This document shows, piece after piece, positions 3,184-21,702 of a stretch of 64,000 nt of DNA (positions are counted from its first letter, which is position 1; each line of letters starts with the position of its first letter). The translations under genes and the position numbers were made by a program. The notes beneath the pieces were generated by a model. The model was not told where the DNA came from. It made no database searches and saw only the letters and a program-made list of their open reading frames with translations. The stretch is from Bacteroidetes bacterium 2013_40CM_41_45 (GTDB lineage: Bacteria; Bacteroidota; Bacteroidia; AKYH767-A; 2013-40CM-41-45), in contig NGFH01000004.1 in the NCBI GenBank assembly GCA_002215675.1, positions 310,001 to 374,000 on the forward strand, given 5' to 3'.

Positions 3184-5535
3184 GTGAAAAACAAGTTACA
3201 TATACTTGTTATTGAAGACGATGAGCTTGACCGCATGATTATTAAGCGTGCGCTCGAGGGTGCCGATATGAATATTGAAGTGGTGTTTGCAGAAAGCATG
3301 GAAAGCGGTAAGCAAGCAGTTGCCAAAAAAAATTACGATTGCATATTTATTGATTACAACCTGCCGGGCGGTAATGGACTTGAGATGATGAAATATACTC
3401 GTGAGGCAGGAAATAACTCTCCTTTAATTGTAGTTACATCACAAGGTGATGAACGGATTGCCGTGGAAATCATGAAAAACGGTGCATCTGACTACATCAC
3501 CAAGAACATGCTTACCGCCGAGAGCTTAAAGCAAATTCTTCGGCATATTTTCCGCCTGAGAGAATCTGAGGGAGAGAAGACAAGGTTTGCTAAAGCGCTG
3601 CAAAATACACAGAAGACCTTGCAGGCTGTAGTGGCCAATGCACCTGTGATTTTATTTTCTACTGATACCAACGGAATTTTAACCATGCTTGAGGGAAAAG
3701 GAATTTCAGAGTTTGACCTTGACCGTAAATCATACCTGATTCCTGAAGGGAACAATTCAGATCGCACGTTGCCTATTTCGCCATCCGCGCTCAAAGAATC
3801 ATTGTCAGGAAAAGACGTGAAGGATATCATTAAAAGAAACGGAAAGTTTTACGAGGTGATGTACTCTCCTATGCACAATCATAATGATGAAATAATTGGC
3901 GTGATGGGCGTTGCAACAGACGTTACCCTGCATAAACTGGCCGAGGAACAACTGCTCACTGAAAAAAGCATAGCTGAGGAAACAGCGCGCATCAAGCAAC
4001 AGTTTCTTGCCAACATGAGTCATGAAATCCGCACGCCTATGAACGGAATCATCGGGCTTGCCGACATCATGCTTCGTACCGAACTGGATGAGGAGCAGAA
4101 AAAATATATGCAGTCTATTATGAGCTGCTCCGATAATCTTTTAGTTATCATCAACGATATTCTTGACCTTTCGAAAATTGAAGCCGGCAGGATGACCATT
4201 GAAAGAACGCCTTTCTGCCTTAGTGATATTATAGAAAATTCTCTTTCTATGTTTTCGCGGAGCGCTTTGAAGAAAAATATCAAACTAACCGCTTCCTGCG
4301 CTGAAAATGTTCCGGTGTTTTTGGTGGGTGACTCAGTTCGCCTTAGCCAGGTGCTGAATAATTTAATAGACAACGCCATTAAATTCACTCCTTCGGGAGA
4401 AGTTGCGGTAAGCATAAGCTGCGCAAGAGAAACAGCAGATAATGCCTCTCTCATTTTCAGTGTAAAGGATTCCGGTATCGGCATACCCAAAGAAAACCGG
4501 CAGGCTATCTTCGATAGTTTTACCCAGGCGCGCAGCGATACCGCCCGTAAGTTTGGCGGAACAGGGCTGGGGCTTACGATTGTTAAAAAACTTTTAGAGA
4601 TGCAGGGCGGTTCAATATCTGTAGAAAGCATTGAAGGAACCGGTACAGTATTTACATTTAATATCAGCTATCCCAAAGCAACCGTAAAGGAAATAGAAGA
4701 CCATCACAGAACATCAGCTGTACTTGCAGTTCCTGATTTTAGCAACCTGAATATTCTTATTGCCGAAGACAATGAAATGAACCGTTTAATCATGCAGAAA
4801 CATTTCAGCGACTGGAAGATTAAATATAAAGTGGCTGCAAACGGAAAAGAAGTGGTAGAGCTTGCAAAACAAAATACTTTCGATTTAATACTGATGGATA
4901 TACAGATGCCTTTGATGGACGGATATGATGCTACAAAAATTATCCGCAGCACTTTGCCCGCAGAGAAAGCGCGGGTTCCCATTATTGCGGTTACTGCCCA
5001 CGCAAGTGACACAGAAAGAATAAAATGCCTGGATGCGGGAATGAACGATTACCTGAGCAAACCGTTCAGGTCAGAAGATTTGCTTAAAAAAATCTGTGGT
5101 TTCTTTGACGGGCCGATGCCTTCGTTAGGAAGCAGGAAAGAAACCCTCTCTGCCGCTAAGGAAAAAGATACATCTTCTCATAACCAGTTTCGCGTTGTAG
5201 ACCTTGATTATCTTAGGCGTGTTGCAGTAGATGAGCCGCAATTTATTCAGGAAATGATTTCCATTTTCCTGCAGCGCACTCCCGAAGCACTGCGTACTAT
5301 TCGTGACAGCATCAATGCAAAGGATATGAAAACGGTTTGGCAAACTGCACACCGGATGAAACCCACTTTCTCTTATATGGGAATGAAAAACACTTCGATT
5401 CTTGCAGCAGACCTTGAAAAATTATGCAAGAATGCCCCCGATGAAGCTAAAGCAGAATTCCTGCTCGGTAACATCGAATACGATTTTAACATTGCTCAAT
5501 CACTTATTGAAAAAGAATTTCTCGTAACCAGATAA
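3184..5535 (+). CDS. Hybrid sensor histidine kinase (REC-PAS-HisKA-HATPase-REC-Hpt)
   Basis: 783 aa from a GTG start. Domains in order: receiver 1 with phosphoacceptor D57 (about 5-122); PAS-like region (about 145-250); HisKA with H280 in MSHEIRTPMNG; HATPase with NNLIDNAIKF, DSGIGIP (429-435) and GGTGLGL (458-464); receiver 2 with D572 (about 522-640); and a C-terminal Hpt domain with H723 in AHRMKP. There is no transmembrane segment, so this is a cytoplasmic multi-step phosphorelay kinase whose input is probably receiver 1 and/or the PAS domain. The sigma-54 activator begins 3 bp after its stop, so the two are surely co-transcribed. The Hpt domain is the likely phosphodonor to that regulator. 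Confidence 0.93.
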   Translation: MKNKLHILVIEDDELDRMIIKRALEGADMNIEVVFAESMESGKQAVAKKNYDCIFIDYNLPGGNGLEMMKYTREAGNNSPLIVVTSQGDERIAVEIMKNGASDYITKNMLTAESLKQILRHIFRLRESEGEKTRFAKALQNTQKTLQAVVANAPVILFSTDTNGILTMLEGKGISEFDLDRKSYLIPEGNNSDRTLPISPSALKESLSGKDVKDIIKRNGKFYEVMYSPMHNHNDEIIGVMGVATDVTLHKLAEEQLLTEKSIAEETARIKQQFLANMSHEIRTPMNGIIGLADIMLRTELDEEQKKYMQSIMSCSDNLLVIINDILDLSKIEAGRMTIERTPFCLSDIIENSLSMFSRSALKKNIKLTASCAENVPVFLVGDSVRLSQVLNNLIDNAIKFTPSGEVAVSISCARETADNASLIFSVKDSGIGIPKENRQAIFDSFTQARSDTARKFGGTGLGLTIVKKLLEMQGGSISVESIEGTGTVFTFNISYPKATVKEIEDHHRTSAVLAVPDFSNLNILIAEDNEMNRLIMQKHFSDWKIKYKVAANGKEVVELAKQNTFDLILMDIQMPLMDGYDATKIIRSTLPAEKARVPIIAVTAHASDTERIKCLDAGMNDYLSKPFRSEDLLKKICGFFDGPMPSLGSRKETLSAAKEKDTSSHNQFRVVDLDYLRRVAVDEPQFIQEMISIFLQRTPEALRTIRDSINAKDMKTVWQTAHRMKPTFSYMGMKNTSILAADLEKLCKNAPDEAKAEFLLGNIEYDFNIAQSLIEKEFLVTR

Positions 5536-5538
5536 AAT

Positions 5539-6801
5539 ATGTTTAAACAAACCATAGCAGCATTACTCGAATCGCGCAGCAACGGTGGCAACGGACATGC
5601 CTCTGAAAAGAAGCAAACTCCGGCTTCCACAATTTATAAAGTATTCATTGTGGAAGACGATGAGTTTCTCGGCAGCGTCCTGAAGCGCACGCTGGAAAAA
5701 ATAAGCGATGCCCAAGTGCATTTATTCAAAACGCCTGAAGAATGTCTCAATAATCTTCACCTGAACCCTGATGTGGTTTCTATTGATTATTACCTGCCGG
5801 GAATGAACGGCCTGGAGATGATGGAGAAAATACGCAACTACAATAATTCCATTAATTGCATTATTGTTTCGGGACAGGAAAAAGTGGACATCGTGCTGGA
5901 ACTTTACAAGAAGGGAGCTGTTGATTACATTATGAAAGATGACAGCGCTGTGGCCAACCTCGAAAATTCTGTAAGGAAAATTTTTGACAACCTGCGCCTT
6001 AGAAAGCAGGTGGAAATATTGCAGGAGCAGATTATAGACCGTAACAAATATTCAAAGATTGTTGGCAATAGCCCTTCCATTTTAAAAGTGCTTAAGATGA
6101 TACAGAAGGTGGAGAACAATAGTATTATGGTGCTCATTAGCGGAGAGAGCGGAACGGGCAAGGAACTTGTTGCGCGGGCTATTCACTACGGCTCACCGCG
6201 CAACCGCAAGCCATTTGTAACGGTGAATATGGGTGCTATTCCTGCTGACTTGATTGAGAGTGAATTATTCGGGCATGAGAAAGGTGCGTTCACCGATGCA
6301 CGCGAGCGCAGAATCGGCAAATTTGAAGAAGCCAGTGAAGGAACTATTTTCCTTGATGAGATAGGGGAGATGGACTTATTTCTCCAGACCAAAATACTGC
6401 GTGTGTTGCAGGAAAAAGAAGTAACACGAATCGGCAGCAACAAAGCTATTAAGCTTGATGTACGCGTAATTGCCGCCACCAATAAAAACCTTTCCCAGGA
6501 AGTTAAGGAAGGGCGTTTCCGCGAAGACCTATTCTACCGCCTGCAAGGGTTCCTGATTCATCTTCCTCCGCTGCGCGAGCGCGGCGAAGACATCATTATC
6601 CTTTCGAAAAGCTTCCTGAATACTTTTTGCAAAGAAAATAATATGCAGGCGGCTTCCATTTCAAAAGAAGCCATCAAAATGCTGCTGGAATATCCCTGGC
6701 CCGGAAACGTGCGCGAAATAAAAGCGGTGATTGAACGTGCCGCCTTGCTTTGCGAGAACGGAACAATTACCACCGAGGATATTGTGTTCGCGAATTCTTA
6801 A
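5539..6801 (+). CDS. Sigma-54-dependent response regulator lacking a DNA-binding domain
   Basis: 420 aa. A receiver domain (about 33-150) has E39/D40/D41 and phosphoacceptor D83. A short coiled linker leads to an AAA+ sigma-54 activation domain (about 172-412) with Walker A GESGTGKE (202-209), a GAFTDA version of the GAFTGA loop (249-254), Walker B FLDEIG (271-276) and arginine-finger region GRFRED. The protein ends just after the AAA+ lid, at the point where NtrC-family members normally carry a Fis-type helix-turn-helix. It should still be able to act on RNA polymerase-sigma-54, but without its own DNA anchor. It is partnered with the hybrid kinase immediately upstream. Residues 1-32 form an unusual polar N-terminal extension. 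Confidence 0.92.
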   Translation: MFKQTIAALLESRSNGGNGHASEKKQTPASTIYKVFIVEDDEFLGSVLKRTLEKISDAQVHLFKTPEECLNNLHLNPDVVSIDYYLPGMNGLEMMEKIRNYNNSINCIIVSGQEKVDIVLELYKKGAVDYIMKDDSAVANLENSVRKIFDNLRLRKQVEILQEQIIDRNKYSKIVGNSPSILKVLKMIQKVENNSIMVLISGESGTGKELVARAIHYGSPRNRKPFVTVNMGAIPADLIESELFGHEKGAFTDARERRIGKFEEASEGTIFLDEIGEMDLFLQTKILRVLQEKEVTRIGSNKAIKLDVRVIAATNKNLSQEVKEGRFREDLFYRLQGFLIHLPPLRERGEDIIILSKSFLNTFCKENNMQAASISKEAIKMLLEYPWPGNVREIKAVIERAALLCENGTITTEDIVFANS

Positions 6802-6814
6802 TGACCAATGACCA
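6801..6814. repeat. Two tandem heptamers (ATGACCA)
   Basis: ATGACCA occurs twice back to back directly at the stop codon of the sigma-54 activator, in the 23-bp gap between two convergent genes. It is the shortest example of the 7-bp units found in other spacers. Confidence 0.35.
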
Positions 6815-6824
6815 CTAGGCAATT

Positions 6825-7433
6825 TTAATTCTTCACAAACACCAGGTTAGCTCTTATAGTTACCTCATCACTTAACATATTGGCAGGGGTCTTTGCTGCA
6901 ATTCCAAAATCGCTGCGCTTAATAACCCCTACCGCTTTCATTCCGGTCAAGGTTTTCTTGCTGTAGTCATCATAACCCATGTTGGCAGTTATCTCGAGGG
7001 TAACAGGTTTTGTTACCCCGTGCAAAGCAAAGTCGCCCGTAACGGTGTACTTTTTATCTCCCGTTTTTTTAAAAGACGTACTGCGGAAAACTGCATCGGG
7101 ATATTGCTTTACATCAAACATATCGGGTCGCTGCAAATGTGCATCACGGTCAGGTACACGGGTGTCAACGGTTGCAACATCAACAACAAGGTATGCCGAT
7201 GCATCGGTAAAATCATCACCCACGGTGTTGAGGGTTGCTTCTTTGATTTGAAAGCTGCCGGTAACATCGCTCACCATAAGGCGCTCTATTGCAAAGTTGA
7301 GATTAGAATGTGCCGCATCAAAAACCCATTTGGGCTGAGCAGATACAGTGACGGCAAAAAAAGAAATTGCTATAGCAGAAAGTATAAGCTTCCAACTTCG
7401 CTGAAGCTTCGATGGATAAATGATTTTTTTCAT
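6825..7433 (-). CDS. YceI family periplasmic protein
   Basis: 202 aa. A signal peptide covers about 1-32 (hydrophobic core, cleavage near VSA). The mature part starts with the YceI pattern WVFDAAHSNLNFAIERL. It continues with regions typical of the family, including DGDLTL-like positions replaced here by ALHGVTKPVTLEI and the ending RSDFGI. YceI proteins are lipocalin-like barrels that bind long isoprenoid or amphiphilic molecules such as polyprenyl chains; the ligand here is unknown. It is a single gene convergent with the sigma-54 activator. Confidence 0.88.
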   Translation of the reverse strand: MKKIIYPSKLQRSWKLILSAIAISFFAVTVSAQPKWVFDAAHSNLNFAIERLMVSDVTGSFQIKEATLNTVGDDFTDASAYLVVDVATVDTRVPDRDAHLQRPDMFDVKQYPDAVFRSTSFKKTGDKKYTVTGDFALHGVTKPVTLEITANMGYDDYSKKTLTGMKAVGVIKRSDFGIAAKTPANMLSDEVTIRANLVFVKN

Positions 7434-15498: not shown

Positions 15499-17463
15499 CT
15501 ACTTACTCAATATCTTAAACTCCGTTCTGCGGTTAAGCTGCCTGCCTTCATCGGTGTCGTTGCTTGCCACGGGCTGCGTTTTGCCATAGCCCTTTGCAAT
15601 TACACGGTCTGCGCTTATGCCTTTGCTTATGAGGTAATCCACCACACTTTGTGCCCGCGCCTGTGAGAGTTTCTGGTTGTATTCATCGCTGCCGCGGTTA
15701 TCGGTATGGCTGCTCACTTCTATTTTAAGCGATGGCATTTCATTAAGCACTTCCAGCACGCGCGTAAGCTCGCTCATGGATTCCATGCGCAGGTTTGCTT
15801 TGTCAAAGTCGTAGAAAATATTGTTGAGGATAATTTTCTTTCCCACTTCCGGTTTGCGCAATACCACCGGCTTGTTTATTTCCACGTATCCTTTCGATGC
15901 AGGGATGTCTATATTTTCAGAATGGAACAAATGCCCTTCTTTGCGCACCACAATCCCGTAGTTTCTTCCCGATGGAAGTGACACGAGATATTTTCCGGTC
16001 TCGCTGTTGGATTCAAACTTCGCAACCGACTGCGCTTTGAGATTATCTATTACCTCAATATTAGCTCCCAGCGGCTGGCCGGTGGCTTCGTCCGTTATAG
16101 TTCCACTCAAAAGCGTTAGCTGCGGCTGGGCTTTTACCACCGTATCATTAACGAACGTTACCATATAAATATCACGCTTGCCCAAGCTTCCTTCGCGTGC
16201 CGAGGCGTAATACGCATGCTTTCCGCTGGCCGATATTACAAAGCTCACATCGTTTTCCGGTGTGTTAATCGGGTAACCGATGTTCTGCGGCTCGCTCCAT
16301 TTTCCGCCTTCCAAAACAGTTACAAAAATATCGAAGCCGCCCATAGTGTTATGTCCGTTGGAACAGAAGTACAGCGTTTTTCCATCAGGATGCATGAACA
16401 CGGCATCCTCGTCCATTTCAGTATTCACAGGCGGTCCCAGATTTTCTGCCGGCCCCCAGTCGCCTTTGGCAGTTAGCCGTGAAACGTAAATGTCTTTGCC
16501 TCCGTGTCCACCTTCCTTATTGCTCACAAAATAGATTGCCTTTTCATCGGGTGTAAACGCTGCTGATGTTTCCTGCAGCTTCGTGTTTATGTTACTTGAA
16601 AGTCTCTGAGGCGCGCTCCACTGTTTGCCCCTGAGCCGCGATTCGGAGATATCCGCATCTACATTGCTAGCATCGCGATAAACAAACAAACGCTGCCCGT
16701 CCACACTCAGGTTAACGGTTGCATCATTACGCTCGGAGTTTACCGGAGGACCCAGGTTTTTTGCAGGCGTCCATTTCCCGTTTTTGTTTTCCGAAAAATA
16801 AATGTCTTCGTAATACTCGCCCGATTCGTTTTCCAGCCCGCCTGTAGTGCCTTCTCTTTTTGAAGTGAAATAAAGAACCGATTCATCGGCAGAAATTACC
16901 GGGCAGTATTCATCATATTCTGTATTGATAGCGGAGCCCAGGCTTTCAATTTTAACATTGAGTGGTGCCGCCATCAGTTTCTTTCCGACTTTGCACTCTT
17001 CTATTTTTCTTTTTGCCGTTACAATCTCCGCATCATTGCTTTCTGATTTTTTACCCAGGCACCGCGAATATTCTTCAATCGCCTTATCCCATTCAAGGTT
17101 AAAGTGGTATGCTTTTGCTAGTAAAAAGTGTGCATCAATATCCACATCGGGTTTCAGCTGGATAGCTTTCTCAATGAGTTCAATGGCTTTCTTTTTCTTA
17201 ACAGAATGAATGTAACAGTTGCCCATTTTCAGGTCCAACTCTGCATTGTCGGGATTAAATTTGTAAGCAATTTGATAATGCAGGACCGCTTCATCATATT
17301 GTAAATCATAATAAAAGGAGTCGCCTTCTTTAATCGCTTTTTGTGCTTCCTTCAATCCTTGCTTATCGTTGGGAAAATTGGCAGAATTGAATTCCTTGCT
17401 CTGCGCATAGGCTGTAAAATGAGTTAAAGCGAAAATTACGGTTATCAATAAAATATTTTTCAT
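15499..17463 (-). CDS. PorE-like TPR/PD40/CarboxypepD_reg/OmpA protein
   Basis: 654 aa from the ATG at 17463; an upstream start at 17493 would overlap a TACTTTTG promoter box. A signal peptide covers about 1-21. Then come TPR-like helices (about 30-150), a PD40/WD40-type propeller (about 190-430, with repeats such as SADESVLYFTSKREG and HPDGKTLYFCSNG), a carboxypeptidase-regulatory-like beta domain (about 445-535) and an OmpA C-terminal peptidoglycan-binding domain (about 545-650, with NIFYDFDKANLR and SHTDNRG). This architecture matches PorE of the type IX secretion system, but several paralogues share it. No other T9SS core gene is nearby, so the PorE role is an inference. Confidence 0.85.
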   Translation of the reverse strand: MKNILLITVIFALTHFTAYAQSKEFNSANFPNDKQGLKEAQKAIKEGDSFYYDLQYDEAVLHYQIAYKFNPDNAELDLKMGNCYIHSVKKKKAIELIEKAIQLKPDVDIDAHFLLAKAYHFNLEWDKAIEEYSRCLGKKSESNDAEIVTAKRKIEECKVGKKLMAAPLNVKIESLGSAINTEYDEYCPVISADESVLYFTSKREGTTGGLENESGEYYEDIYFSENKNGKWTPAKNLGPPVNSERNDATVNLSVDGQRLFVYRDASNVDADISESRLRGKQWSAPQRLSSNINTKLQETSAAFTPDEKAIYFVSNKEGGHGGKDIYVSRLTAKGDWGPAENLGPPVNTEMDEDAVFMHPDGKTLYFCSNGHNTMGGFDIFVTVLEGGKWSEPQNIGYPINTPENDVSFVISASGKHAYYASAREGSLGKRDIYMVTFVNDTVVKAQPQLTLLSGTITDEATGQPLGANIEVIDNLKAQSVAKFESNSETGKYLVSLPSGRNYGIVVRKEGHLFHSENIDIPASKGYVEINKPVVLRKPEVGKKIILNNIFYDFDKANLRMESMSELTRVLEVLNEMPSLKIEVSSHTDNRGSDEYNQKLSQARAQSVVDYLISKGISADRVIAKGYGKTQPVASNDTDEGRQLNRRTEFKILSK

Positions 17464-17490
17464 AAGAAGTTTCCTGTAACAGTGAATAAA

Positions 17491-17498
17491 CAAAAGTA
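17491..17498 (-). promoter_or_regulatory. -7 promoter box TACTTTTG
   Basis: TAnnTTTG match on the minus strand, about 28 bp before the ATG at 17463 of the PorE-like gene. It supports that start over the one at 17493, which would fall inside the box. Confidence 0.4.
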
Positions 17499-17720: not shown

Positions 17721-19133
17721 ATGGAAGATTTTGATTTCAGTTACGACAGCGAAGAGATAAAACAATCCGTTAAGCGGTATGAGGATATGATTCGAAGCCG
17801 CAGTATCGGCTTTTTCGATACGGATGTTTTTATCAGCATTGTTGACCATTACATAGACCGCAACGAGCCCTATAAGGCGTTGCAGGTTACCGAGCATGCC
17901 ATATCGCAGCATCCATATTCAGTGGAAATCATGCTGAAGCAGGCGCAGCTTTATTCCCTTGTGAACGACTATAACGGTGCTCTTAGAGTGCTGGACCGCG
18001 CTGAAAGTATTTCGCCTTCCGAGGCAGGCGTGTATATGATTCGCGGAAGCATTTATAGCCAACAGGCAAAATACGATGCCGCTATTGACAGCTTTAAAAA
18101 AGCTATCCCTTATAGTGAAGCTCTTGATGAACTCTTTCTTAACATGGCTTTTGTTTATGAGAGTTCCGGAAGCTATCGTAATGCCATTTCAAGCTTGAAA
18201 AAGTCGCTCGAGGAAAATCCTGATAACGAAGAAGCCATGTATGAGCTTGCTTTTTGTTTTGAAGCCAGCGGGCAGTTGAAAGAAAGCGTTGAGTTTTACA
18301 AGCAATTCATAGATAAAGACCCGTATTCATACAATGCCTGGTATAATCTTGGAAACGTGCATCACCGTCTCGCTAATTTCGAAGACGCATTGGAAGCGTA
18401 TGATTATTGTATCCTGATTCGCGAAGACTTTTCTTCGGCTTACTTCAATAAAGGCAATACATTGGCAAGTATGAAAAGATATGCCGAAGCTATTGAATGT
18501 TACCGCGAAACGTTTGACTACGAGCAGCCCGAGTCGCTTACTTATTACAATATTGGCAAGTGTTATGAAGCGCAGGGCGAAACCGGTAACGCACGCAAGG
18601 CATACCGAAAGTCGGTAAAGCTTCGTCCTGCTCTTGCTGAAGCATGGTGCGGTATAGGATGTACTTTGCAGGATGAAGAACGCTGGTATGAGAGCTTATT
18701 TTATTTTAAGAAAGCGATAGACCTTGAAGCAGACCAGGCGGATTTCTGGTATTGCCTGGGCGACTCGCTTTTCCAGATGAGTAATTTGCCCGAAGCTGCC
18801 AAAGCGTATCTTAAAGTTATTGAGCTGGATTCTGACAATCCCGATATACGCCTAGATTATTCTCACCTTCTCATGTCCGTCAGCCGCTATGATGAGGCCG
18901 TTGACGTGCTTGCAAAAGGATTAATAAAAAACCCTTCCAATGCCGAATATCTCTACCGTTTGTCCTGTTATCATTTTGATGAACACAACCTTGAAAAATC
19001 CATGGCCTGTCTCAAAGAAGCGTTGCTCATCGATTACAACAAACATGTTCAGTTATATGAATACCTTCCCCGAATGAAGCGCGATAGGAATATCACTGCC
19101 CTGGTAGAACAATATTCAACACATACTTTATGA
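17721..19133 (+). CDS. Tetratricopeptide repeat protein
   Basis: 470 aa, almost entirely TPR units of about 34 residues with the expected small/aromatic pattern (for example AWYNLGNVHHRLANFEDALEAYDYCI and AYFNKGNTLASMKRYAEAIECY). There is no signal peptide, so it is probably a cytoplasmic scaffold. The stop overlaps the ATG of the phosphosulfolactate synthase gene by 4 bp (ATGA), showing translational coupling. The partner is unknown; the operon position suggests a link to the enzymes that follow or to general assembly functions. Confidence 0.9.
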   Translation: MEDFDFSYDSEEIKQSVKRYEDMIRSRSIGFFDTDVFISIVDHYIDRNEPYKALQVTEHAISQHPYSVEIMLKQAQLYSLVNDYNGALRVLDRAESISPSEAGVYMIRGSIYSQQAKYDAAIDSFKKAIPYSEALDELFLNMAFVYESSGSYRNAISSLKKSLEENPDNEEAMYELAFCFEASGQLKESVEFYKQFIDKDPYSYNAWYNLGNVHHRLANFEDALEAYDYCILIREDFSSAYFNKGNTLASMKRYAEAIECYRETFDYEQPESLTYYNIGKCYEAQGETGNARKAYRKSVKLRPALAEAWCGIGCTLQDEERWYESLFYFKKAIDLEADQADFWYCLGDSLFQMSNLPEAAKAYLKVIELDSDNPDIRLDYSHLLMSVSRYDEAVDVLAKGLIKNPSNAEYLYRLSCYHFDEHNLEKSMACLKEALLIDYNKHVQLYEYLPRMKRDRNITALVEQYSTHTL

Positions 19134-19912
19134 ATTTCGACCTGAACCAGGTTCCCAAACGCACTGTCAAACCGAGAACCCATGGGCTGACTATGGTTAT
19201 GGACAAGGGCTTGAGCTTGCGCGAGGCAGAAGATATGCTTTCGGTAAGCGGTGATTATATAGACATTCTAAAGCTTGGCTTTGGCACGGCATACGTTACT
19301 CCGCAGCTCGACAAAAAAATTTCTCTCTACCGCAGCGCGGGCCTTGCTGTTTATTTTGGTGGAACTTTACTGGAAGCGTTTCTTATCCGCAACCAATTAG
19401 AGGATTATATTAAGCTGGTTGAAAAATATAAGATGGAACACCTCGAAATTTCTGACGGTTCCGTCATTATGCCTCACGAAAAAAAAATCCAGCTTATCCG
19501 GCGGTTAAGCAAAATTGCTACTGTGATTACAGAAGTGGGCTCCAAAGAAGAAGGTATTCTCATTCATCCCAACGTGTGGATAAGCATGATGCAGGAAGAG
19601 ATAAAAGCCGGCGCATGGAAAGTAATTGCCGAAGCGCGCGAAAGCGGAACAGTAGGAATCTTTCGTCCCAGCGGTAAGGCGCATGTTGTGCTCATTAATA
19701 AAATCGTTGCAAAAGTTCCGCAGGAAAAAATTATCTGGGAAACACCATCCAAATCACAACAGGCATATTTTATCAAGCTTCTCGGAGCCAATGTTAATCT
19801 GGGAAATATTGCTCCTGCCGATGTACTTCCGCTGGAAACGCTCCGCCTTGGCCTGCGCAGCGATACCTTTTTCAGTTTTCTCGACAACAAGAATTCAAAA
19901 ACAGTTCAATGA
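19130..19912 (+). CDS. comA: Phosphosulfolactate synthase (ComA family)
   Basis: 260 aa, a TIM-barrel enzyme of the ComA family, which adds sulfite to phosphoenolpyruvate to give phosphosulfolactate. Recognisable stretches are KPRTHGLTMVMDKGLS, YIDILKLGFGTAYV, EHLEISDGSV, the E-x-G pattern TEVGSKEEG and IWETPSKSQQAYFIKLLGANVNLGNI. Length is normal for the family. It overlaps its neighbours on both sides by 4 bp, so it is part of a TPR-comA-rhodanese operon. The genes for the next coenzyme M steps (comB, comC) are not in the window. In bacteria such genes may feed sulfolactate, cysteate or sulfonolipid routes; that is inference. Confidence 0.9.
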   Translation: MNFDLNQVPKRTVKPRTHGLTMVMDKGLSLREAEDMLSVSGDYIDILKLGFGTAYVTPQLDKKISLYRSAGLAVYFGGTLLEAFLIRNQLEDYIKLVEKYKMEHLEISDGSVIMPHEKKIQLIRRLSKIATVITEVGSKEEGILIHPNVWISMMQEEIKAGAWKVIAEARESGTVGIFRPSGKAHVVLINKIVAKVPQEKIIWETPSKSQQAYFIKLLGANVNLGNIAPADVLPLETLRLGLRSDTFFSFLDNKNSKTVQ

Positions 19913-20226
19913 AGGAAATAACGGTAAAGGAATTAAAGGAAAAGATAGACAGGAAAGAAACGTTTCAGCTTATTGACGTGCGCGAACCGTATGAGCATGA
20001 ATTTGCAAACATTTCCGGTGAGTTGATTCCTATGAGCCAGATTATAAACGAGAAAGAAAAAATTCAGAGTGATAAACCGGTTGTTATTTATTGCCGCTCG
20101 GGCAACAGAAGCGCTGTGGTCATCCAGGCATTGGAGCAGCGCTTCGGGTTTACAAATCTTTACAACCTGAAAGGCGGCATCCTGGCATGGGCAAAGGAAA
20201 TAGACCCTTCGGTTCCACAATATTAG
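19909..20226 (+). CDS. Rhodanese-like domain protein
   Basis: 105 aa, a single rhodanese domain. The active-site loop is YCRSGNRSA with catalytic C62, preceded by LIDVREPYEHEFANI. Single-domain rhodaneses carry sulfane sulfur as a cysteine persulfide. The ATG overlaps the stop of the phosphosulfolactate synthase gene, so a sulfur-related function in the same pathway is plausible but unproven. The start codon choice is clear from the 4-bp ATGA overlap. Confidence 0.92.
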   Translation: MKEITVKELKEKIDRKETFQLIDVREPYEHEFANISGELIPMSQIINEKEKIQSDKPVVIYCRSGNRSAVVIQALEQRFGFTNLYNLKGGILAWAKEIDPSVPQY

Positions 20227-20329: not shown

Positions 20330-20974
20330 ATGGAACTTCTTTCATCAATCATTGACTTTGTTCTGCATATCGACAAGCACCTTGTTGAAATAACGACGGA
20401 GTACCAAAAGCTTACATATATAATTCTTTTCCTAATTATATTTTGCGAGACCGGTTTGGTTGTTACTCCTTTTCTTCCTGGTGATTCGCTTTTATTTGCA
20501 GCCGGAAGCGTAGCCGCCCTCGATGGCTCACCGCTCGATGTGAATTTACTTGCGCTTATTGTTTTTCTTGCTGCATTCAGCGGAGACAATTCAAATTTTT
20601 TTATCGGCAAACTCATCGGGCACAAAGTGTATGAGAGAAATTACCGCTTTATAAAAAGAGAATACCTTGACCGTACTCATGCTTTCTACGAAAAGCACGG
20701 AGGCAAAACAGTCATCATCGCCCGCTTTATTCCTATCATCAGAACATTTGCTCCGTTTGTTGCGGGAGTGGGAAGCATGAAATATCCGCGCTTCATTATA
20801 TTCAGCATGGCAGCTTCTTTACTTTGGATATCTTTATTCATTACAGCAGGTTATAAATTCGGGCAGCTGCCTGTAGTGAAGAATAATTTTTCGCTGGTGA
20901 CTATCGGCATTATACTGGTATCAATACTGCCAATAATCATCGGTTTTATCCGGAGCCGCATTAAAAAGACATGA
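20330..20974 (+). CDS. DedA family membrane protein
   Basis: 214 aa with several hydrophobic segments. Family signatures are FCETGLVVTPFLPGDSLLFAAG near residue 43 and ARFIPIIRTFAPFVAGVG near 130, which form the two re-entrant regions of DedA (VTT/SNARE-associated) proteins. Some members recycle undecaprenyl phosphate or flip phosphatidylethanolamine; the substrate here is not known. The stop overlaps the aroE ATG by 4 bp, so aroE is translated with it. Confidence 0.9.
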   Translation: MELLSSIIDFVLHIDKHLVEITTEYQKLTYIILFLIIFCETGLVVTPFLPGDSLLFAAGSVAALDGSPLDVNLLALIVFLAAFSGDNSNFFIGKLIGHKVYERNYRFIKREYLDRTHAFYEKHGGKTVIIARFIPIIRTFAPFVAGVGSMKYPRFIIFSMAASLLWISLFITAGYKFGQLPVVKNNFSLVTIGIILVSILPIIIGFIRSRIKKT

Positions 20975-21702
20975 GAACATTCGGCCTCATTGGTTTTCCG
21001 ATTGGTCATTCGTTTTCTCAAAAATATTTTTCTGAAAAGTTTAAGCGAGCAAACATCAGCGATGCTGAATTCAAAAACTTCCCTCTTGAAAATATAAATG
21101 ATTTTCCCGGGTTGATTGAAGACAATTCCAATCTGCTTGGTTTAAGTGTTACCATCCCTCACAAACAAAGCGTGATGAAATTTTTGAATGCAATAGATTC
21201 AGTTGCAAGTGAAACAGGAGCAGTGAATTGTATTAAAGTTAGTGAGACATTAAAAGGATTTAACACCGATGTTTATGGATTTGAAAAGTCTTTGCTGCCG
21301 CTTTTAAAAAATCATCATATCAAAGCATTAATACTCGGCAGTGGGGGAGGAGCAAAAGCAGTTAAATATGTTCTGAAGAAATCAGGAATTGAATATATGT
21401 TTGTTTCAAGAAGCCAAAAGCCGAAAGTCAAAAGCTACCATGATTTGAACAGTGAAATAATTTCATCGCACATGCTCATCATTAACACAACCCCTCTTGG
21501 TATGTTTCCTGATGTTGGTTCACGTCCAAAAATTCCTTACGAACACCTCACGGAAAAACATTTGCTGTATGATTTGGTATATAATCCGCAGGAAACTTTG
21601 TTTCTGAAAAAGGGAAAAGAAAGAGGGGCACAGGTAAAGAATGGTTTAGAAATGCTGCAACTACAGGCAGATAAAGCATGGGAGATATGGAATGGTCATT
21701 AG
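20971..21702 (+). CDS. aroE: Shikimate dehydrogenase
   Basis: 243 aa. Reduces 3-dehydroshikimate to shikimate with NADPH in the aromatic amino acid pathway. Motifs: FPIGHSFSQKYF at the N terminus, LSVTIPHKQSV with the catalytic Lys, GFNTDVYGF with the catalytic Asp, nucleotide loop GSGGGAKAV and NTTPLGMFP. It is somewhat shorter than the usual 270 or so residues, mainly in loops, with all key residues present. It overlaps dedA by 4 bp. The stop codon TAG lies inside a heptamer array, so the last residues (NGH) are encoded by repeat sequence. Confidence 0.93.
   Translation: MRTFGLIGFPIGHSFSQKYFSEKFKRANISDAEFKNFPLENINDFPGLIEDNSNLLGLSVTIPHKQSVMKFLNAIDSVASETGAVNCIKVSETLKGFNTDVYGFEKSLLPLLKNHHIKALILGSGGGAKAVKYVLKKSGIEYMFVSRSQKPKVKSYHDLNSEIISSHMLIINTTPLGMFPDVGSRPKIPYEHLTEKHLLYDLVYNPQETLFLKKGKERGAQVKNGLEMLQLQADKAWEIWNGH

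Follow-up and report, generated by a model that had tools for sequence, protein, structure and literature searches.

Phosphosulfolactate synthase homologue ComA as a probable source of cysteate for sulfonolipids in Bacteroidota, alternating with CapA

Introduction

What does a homologue of phosphosulfolactate synthase (ComA), the enzyme with which archaea start coenzyme M synthesis, do in a bacterium of the phylum Bacteroidota? The question is raised by a stretch of 64,000 nucleotides (C6:310001-374000; here called the window) from the genome of Bacteroidetes bacterium 2013_40CM_41_45 (3.38 Mb, 11 contigs, 99.5% complete), in which a comA gene, present as a single copy in this genome, lies between genes for a TPR protein and a rhodanese. 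According to excerpts of PMC5695019, ComA forms (R)-phosphosulfolactate from phosphoenolpyruvate (PEP) and sulfite, ComB yields (R)-sulfolactate and ComC yields sulfopyruvate, oxaloacetate also being accepted by the last enzyme, at 31%; cysteate and sulfopyruvate are linked by an aspartate aminotransferase. The consulted part of a review (PMC10191378) assigns cysteate formation to CapA in Capnocytophaga and to an archaeal-type synthase in Alistipes and Odoribacter. A sequence-only reading of the window had taken the three genes for an operon and proposed a sulfonate pathway in which ComA makes the C3-sulfonate and the rhodanese handles sulfur, and had pointed to the sulfonolipids that many Bacteroidota make from cysteate.

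Results

The central gene of the row, comA (19130..19912, + strand; 260 aa, PF02679), is preceded by its syntenic neighbor, the gene for a TPR superhelix protein (17721..19133, +; 470 aa, Pfam TPR families), and followed by that for a single-domain rhodanese (19909..20226, +; 105 aa, PF00581), an optional neighbor. As had been described from the sequence alone, both junctions are 4-bp overlaps of open reading frames on the plus strand, each with ATGA. The row continues with a DedA family membrane protein (20330..20974, +; NF008102, 269.5 bits, above the cut-off) and then aroE, encoding shikimate dehydrogenase (20971..21702, +), which matches PF08501 and scores 157 bits with TIGR00507, below the cut-off of 200. 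On the other side of the TPR gene, a 664-aa ORF on the minus strand (15499-17493) has, by eye, the look of an OmpA-type Bacteroidota outer-membrane protein.

The proposed identity of ComA is well borne out. The protein matches PF02679 with 290 bits (cut-off, 25.2) over profile positions 1-243 of 243, and among the solved phosphosulfolactate synthases phmmer gives 173 bits with that of Bacillus subtilis (1u83) and 145 bits with that of Methanocaldococcus jannaschii (1qwg). Its AlphaFold2 model is of moderate confidence (pLDDT 73.7), and the best Foldseek matches are the same two structures (1qwg, E 2.2e-19; 1u83, E 2.8e-19). Positions invariant in 25 Bacteroidota ComAs were then compared with 1qwg and 1u83: D25, D45, K48, E82, E106, E135, K139, E168, R170, E171, E204 and K208 are identical in all three proteins, and R239, R243 and D245 are also common to them, with the 1u83 side read by eye. 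We take K139 to be the counterpart of K137 of archaeal ComA, a proposed catalytic residue. Loss of the sulfite-binding residues would have counted against the sulfonate role, and by alignment these charged residues appear to be retained. Against the NCBIfam equivalog of archaeal ComA (TIGR03849) the protein scores 255.3 bits, below the cut-off of 280, and it is therefore filed under the ComA family and not under the archaeal equivalog. Overall, it is a convincing phosphosulfolactate synthase homologue by sequence, with catalysis predicted.

Conservation of the gene row was followed in 80 named ComA loci kept out of 566 relatives; adjacency was counted over 79 of them, since L120 has no gene call for ComA. 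In 67 of the 79 loci the gene immediately preceding comA, on the same strand, encodes a TPR protein, with the same 4-bp overlap in 15 of these 67, and the two genes are adjacent in 32 of the 37 ComA genomes of the window's class. The rhodanese directly follows comA in 27/79 loci, DedA occurs in 25/80 and aroE, which also marks rows lacking ComA, in 41/80. The gene order is conserved and not a product of chance. Such close and often overlapping pairing might mean that ComA and the TPR protein act together as a different functional unit, such as a pair of stress proteins like HSA32, a plant relative of ComA that is a stress protein, joined by the rhodanese. This explanation is very improbable, as genomes that lack ComA still have the TPR orthologue: it gives a single match in 65 of the 80 genomes searched, among them every one of the 16 CapA genomes and the ComA-less genomes G261, G349, G361, G002 and G346 of family f2. 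The low count of loci in which the rhodanese follows ComA also speaks against such a unit.

Twenty TPR loci from ComA-less genomes were read for their gene order. ComA is absent from an otherwise intact TPR-to-aroE row in seven CapA genomes and in two that lack the cysteate-C-fatty acyltransferase (CFAT): aroE comes immediately after the TPR gene in the CFAT-less G002 and G346, two DUF368-like genes stand between them in G118, G226, G103, G130, G134 and G198, and the row of G021 consists of TPR and aroE. The other 11 loci, including those of G261, G349 and G361, have a different downstream side. The ComA-less rows suggest that ComA came or went in an otherwise stable row. The TPR protein, modeled as a superhelix (pLDDT 93.8) whose closest solved fold is the TPR domain of O-GlcNAc transferase, is thus probably a neighbor with a job of its own, and a dedicated TPR-ComA partnership was rejected as the main reading. 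For the rhodanese (62.8 bits with PF00581), a CRSGNR loop with its cysteine is present in the window's protein, and 22 of 27 relatives have a motif that matches it; none of the specific NCBIfam rhodanese equivalogs was reached at its cut-off. This protein may have a putative part in supplying sulfite. With the TPR protein persisting without ComA and the rhodanese following it in a minority of loci, neither is tied to the pathway, and as members of a sulfonate pathway they are not supported.

A search of the genome for other sulfonate genes, suggested along with that reading, returned ComB and CFAT, and no ComC or CapA. ComB (PF04029, 259 bits) is encoded on the same contig, about 68 kb upstream of ComA, and scores below the cut-offs of the NCBIfam 2-phosphosulfolactate phosphatase equivalogs. 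Its gene stands after gcvT (L033:8377-10303); gcvT and comB are neighbors in 27 of 30 ComB loci (L033-L062), ComA-less genomes included, and give no lead on a dehydrogenase. A 413-aa protein, L196, scores 613 bits with 7u7h, 573 bits with 28eh, an entry named cysteate-C-fatty acyltransferase, and 246 bits with serine palmitoyltransferase. By these scores it is assigned as CFAT, the CapB/SulA orthologue and committed enzyme of sulfonolipid synthesis. Sulfonate genes besides ComA are thus present in the genome, whose lack would have spoken against the proposed role. No match to the ComC family (PF02615) was found in the window's genome, with controls matching in 4 of 14, and coenzyme M synthesis was rejected on this ground. 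No recurrent candidate for a sulfolactate dehydrogenase emerged from 80 ComA, 60 CFAT and 30 ComB loci, in which many clusters were judged by start sequence. The aspartate-aminotransferase-like protein L192 scores below its equivalog cut-off.

CapA is a relative of cystathionine beta-synthase (CBS), and the best CapA match in the window's genome, at about 472-474 of the required 600 bits, is a CBS-like protein, L206, that also falls short of the CBS equivalog (503 of 510 bits). In the tree, L206 groups with CBS and off the CapA side, with split support of 100/99, and it shares 53-61% identity with 18 of the CapA proteins. It is one of two PALP-family enzymes in this genome, the second being an ACC-deaminase-like protein. 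The archaeal-type cysteate synthase (TIGR03844) has no match in the window's genome and none above the cut-off in the 80 genomes searched, and a Methanosarcina-class control gave one above it.

For the DISCRIMINATING test, one set of 392 genomes from the phylum was screened for ComA, ComB, CFAT and CapA. ComA matched in 104 genomes, of which G019, below the Pfam cut-off, was removed to leave 103; ComB was found in 223, CFAT in 148 at E 1e-100, and CapA in 45 above the curated cut-off. The line for CapA was drawn at 500 bits after the data had been seen, 45 genomes scoring above 600 bits, nine 508-552 and the others 493 or less. CFAT is encoded by 98 of the 105 genomes of the window's class, and among these 98, 37 have ComA only, 54 have CapA only, none has both and 7 have neither; ComA and CapA are likewise absent from the 7 genomes of the class that lack CFAT. 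Counted by genus, the CFAT holders of the class comprise 27 with ComA, 20 with CapA, 3 with neither and none with both. ComB is present in 36 of the 37 ComA genomes versus 4 of the 68 other genomes of the class. Fisher values for the class table are tiny and, given the relatedness of the genomes, are not to be taken literally. With ComB and CFAT in the genome and ComA alternating with CapA among CFAT genomes, both a role in sulfonate metabolism and the connection with sulfonolipids made from cysteate gain support at the sequence level. We consider it rather likely that (R)-sulfolactate from ComA and ComB is used as a cysteate precursor for sulfonolipids and that CapA replaces them in one large clade.

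On a tree of 60 CFAT proteins the CapA holders stand together, apart from the ComA lineages, suggesting that the swap was mainly one event; as the alternation amounts mainly to one swap plus a few others, its independent support is limited. One of the others may be G362, the sole CFAT genome of family f25 in the draw that lacks ComA. It carries a gene pair in which CFAT groups with the CFAT proteins of CapA holders and the CapA-like partner lies on the CapA side, on a long, flagged branch; the partner scores below the 500-bit line, and G362 is therefore tabulated as CapA-less. In genus g2 of family f2 (G002 and G346), CFAT, ComA and ComB are missing together, and family relatives have them. 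Of the seven CFAT genomes with neither ComA nor CapA, G261, G349 and G361 (family f2) retain ComB, and G064, G158, G162 and G178 (family f6) lack it as well. The archaeal-type cysteate synthase was rejected as the source in these seven, none scoring above the cut-off. G261, G349 and G361 offer a natural test for a further cysteate source.

Since CapA is close to CBS, L206 might itself make cysteate. If L206, with 472 of the 600 bits for CapA, or another enzyme did so, the alternation of ComA and CapA would be a phylogenetic accident of one clade, as the essentially single group of CapA holders on the CFAT tree and the seven CFAT genomes with neither gene would allow. However, CapA holders also retain a CBS-like enzyme, the CFAT-adjacent CapA proteins are split from the CBS-like ones with the support given above, and the association is repeated outside the CapA clade by G362 and by genus g2. 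We regard this explanation as quite unlikely.

A different fate of the ComA product is indicated by relatives of ComA elsewhere. G286 encodes a second ComA, 44% identical to that of the window, in a surface-polysaccharide-like cluster (L182, C15:21000-33700; 3583-6736, - strand) together with a PAPS reductase (130 bits), a histidine phosphatase (4-bp overlap) and an ATP-grasp protein. It is plausible that this row unites a sulfite maker, a phosphosulfolactate synthase and a phosphatase, in agreement with a ComA that uses sulfite, and the cluster perhaps serves a sulfolactate-like sugar decoration. The row also shows that what ComA makes can be put to other uses. Divergent ComAs, 26-27% identical, also occur in polysaccharide-like clusters at L183 (G390:C27:25000-37600; 5910-7293) and L184 (G200:C154:2800-15500; 5954-6835), and at L183 the ComA gene overlaps a short ComB-family gene (PF04029, 118.7 bits). 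In family f25, a second divergent ComA (21-23% identical) stands beside an MmgE/PrpD-family protein in 5 of 5 loci (L173-L177; Pfam on L174).

In Bacillus spores, sulfolactate is the end product of ComA and ComB. The same could apply here, with (R)-sulfolactate serving as a solute, as a metabolite for export or as a group that decorates surface polysaccharide, apart from sulfonolipids. The polysaccharide clusters of L182, L183 and L184 are in line with such a role, as are the lack of a ComC-family sulfolactate dehydrogenase in the window's genome and 18 ComA genomes outside the class that have no CFAT match at 1e-100. Nevertheless, it would leave unexplained why ComA never occurs with CapA, why CFAT is present in 37 of 37 ComA genomes of the class and why ComA, ComB and CFAT are jointly absent from G002 and G346, and we consider it unlikely.

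Discussion

In the route to cysteate that we favor, ComA would join sulfite and PEP into (R)-phosphosulfolactate, and ComB would take off the phosphate to give (R)-sulfolactate. Oxidation to sulfopyruvate would fall to malate dehydrogenase or another unrecognized 2-hydroxyacid dehydrogenase, and an aspartate-type aminotransferase would convert sulfopyruvate into L-cysteate, which CFAT would condense with a fatty acyl group to start the synthesis of sulfonolipid (capnine). Like L-malate, (R)-sulfolactate is of L configuration; it is for this reason, together with the absence of the ComC family, that a malate-type dehydrogenase is put forward. The presence of the genes and their alternation are what sequence supports; the catalysis of each step here, and which enzymes act as dehydrogenase and aminotransferase, we infer.

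It is conceivable, with the chances somewhat short of even, that ComA and ComB are an old cysteate supply of sulfonolipid-making Bacteroidota, starting from PEP and sulfite, that housekeeping malate dehydrogenase and aspartate aminotransferase finish the route by acting on the sulfonate analogues of malate and aspartate, and that CapA took over in one clade and, independently, in the G362 lineage.

The window's ComA shares family, fold and charged residues with those of Methanocaldococcus jannaschii and Bacillus subtilis, and ComB is present alongside it. In contrast to the coenzyme M pathway, a ComC-family enzyme is absent, comA lies 68 kb from comB, and the proposed fate of the product is cysteate and sulfonolipid. 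The CFAT orthologue (613 bits to 7u7h) is common to this genome, to the CapA-CapB-CapC system of Capnocytophaga and Ornithobacterium, and to SulA of Alistipes, whereas CapA is absent here and cysteate would stem from PEP via ComA and ComB instead of from phosphoserine. The archaeal-type cysteate synthase, a published alternative to CapA that feeds the same acyltransferase step, was not found in the window's genome.

Excerpts of PMC3463246 describe RIF-1, a sulfonolipid of Algoriphagus, as a trigger of rosette development in a choanoflagellate and report positive rosette induction for Cyclobacterium marinum and Dyadobacter fermentans; other sulfonolipids have been linked to inflammation, according to the part of PMC11211663 consulted. 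Other members of Cyclobacterium and Dyadobacter carry ComA (L129 and L139), and the coincidence of rosette-inducing genera with ComA is no more than suggestive of a link to sulfonolipids. Among the titles and opening passages searched, no paper joined ComA or sulfolactate with sulfonolipid synthesis; most subscription journals were outside this scope, and a prior mention is possible. The ComA family itself is already known. Its assignment to the cysteate supply of sulfonolipids appears to be new and is, at the sequence level, well supported by gene distribution.

If this assignment is true, ComA and ComB would constitute a third source of cysteate in Bacteroidota, beside CapA and the archaeal-type synthase. 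They would account for a possible synthesis of sulfonolipids in many CFAT genomes that lack CapA, and they would give a function to genes annotated merely as phosphosulfolactate synthase.
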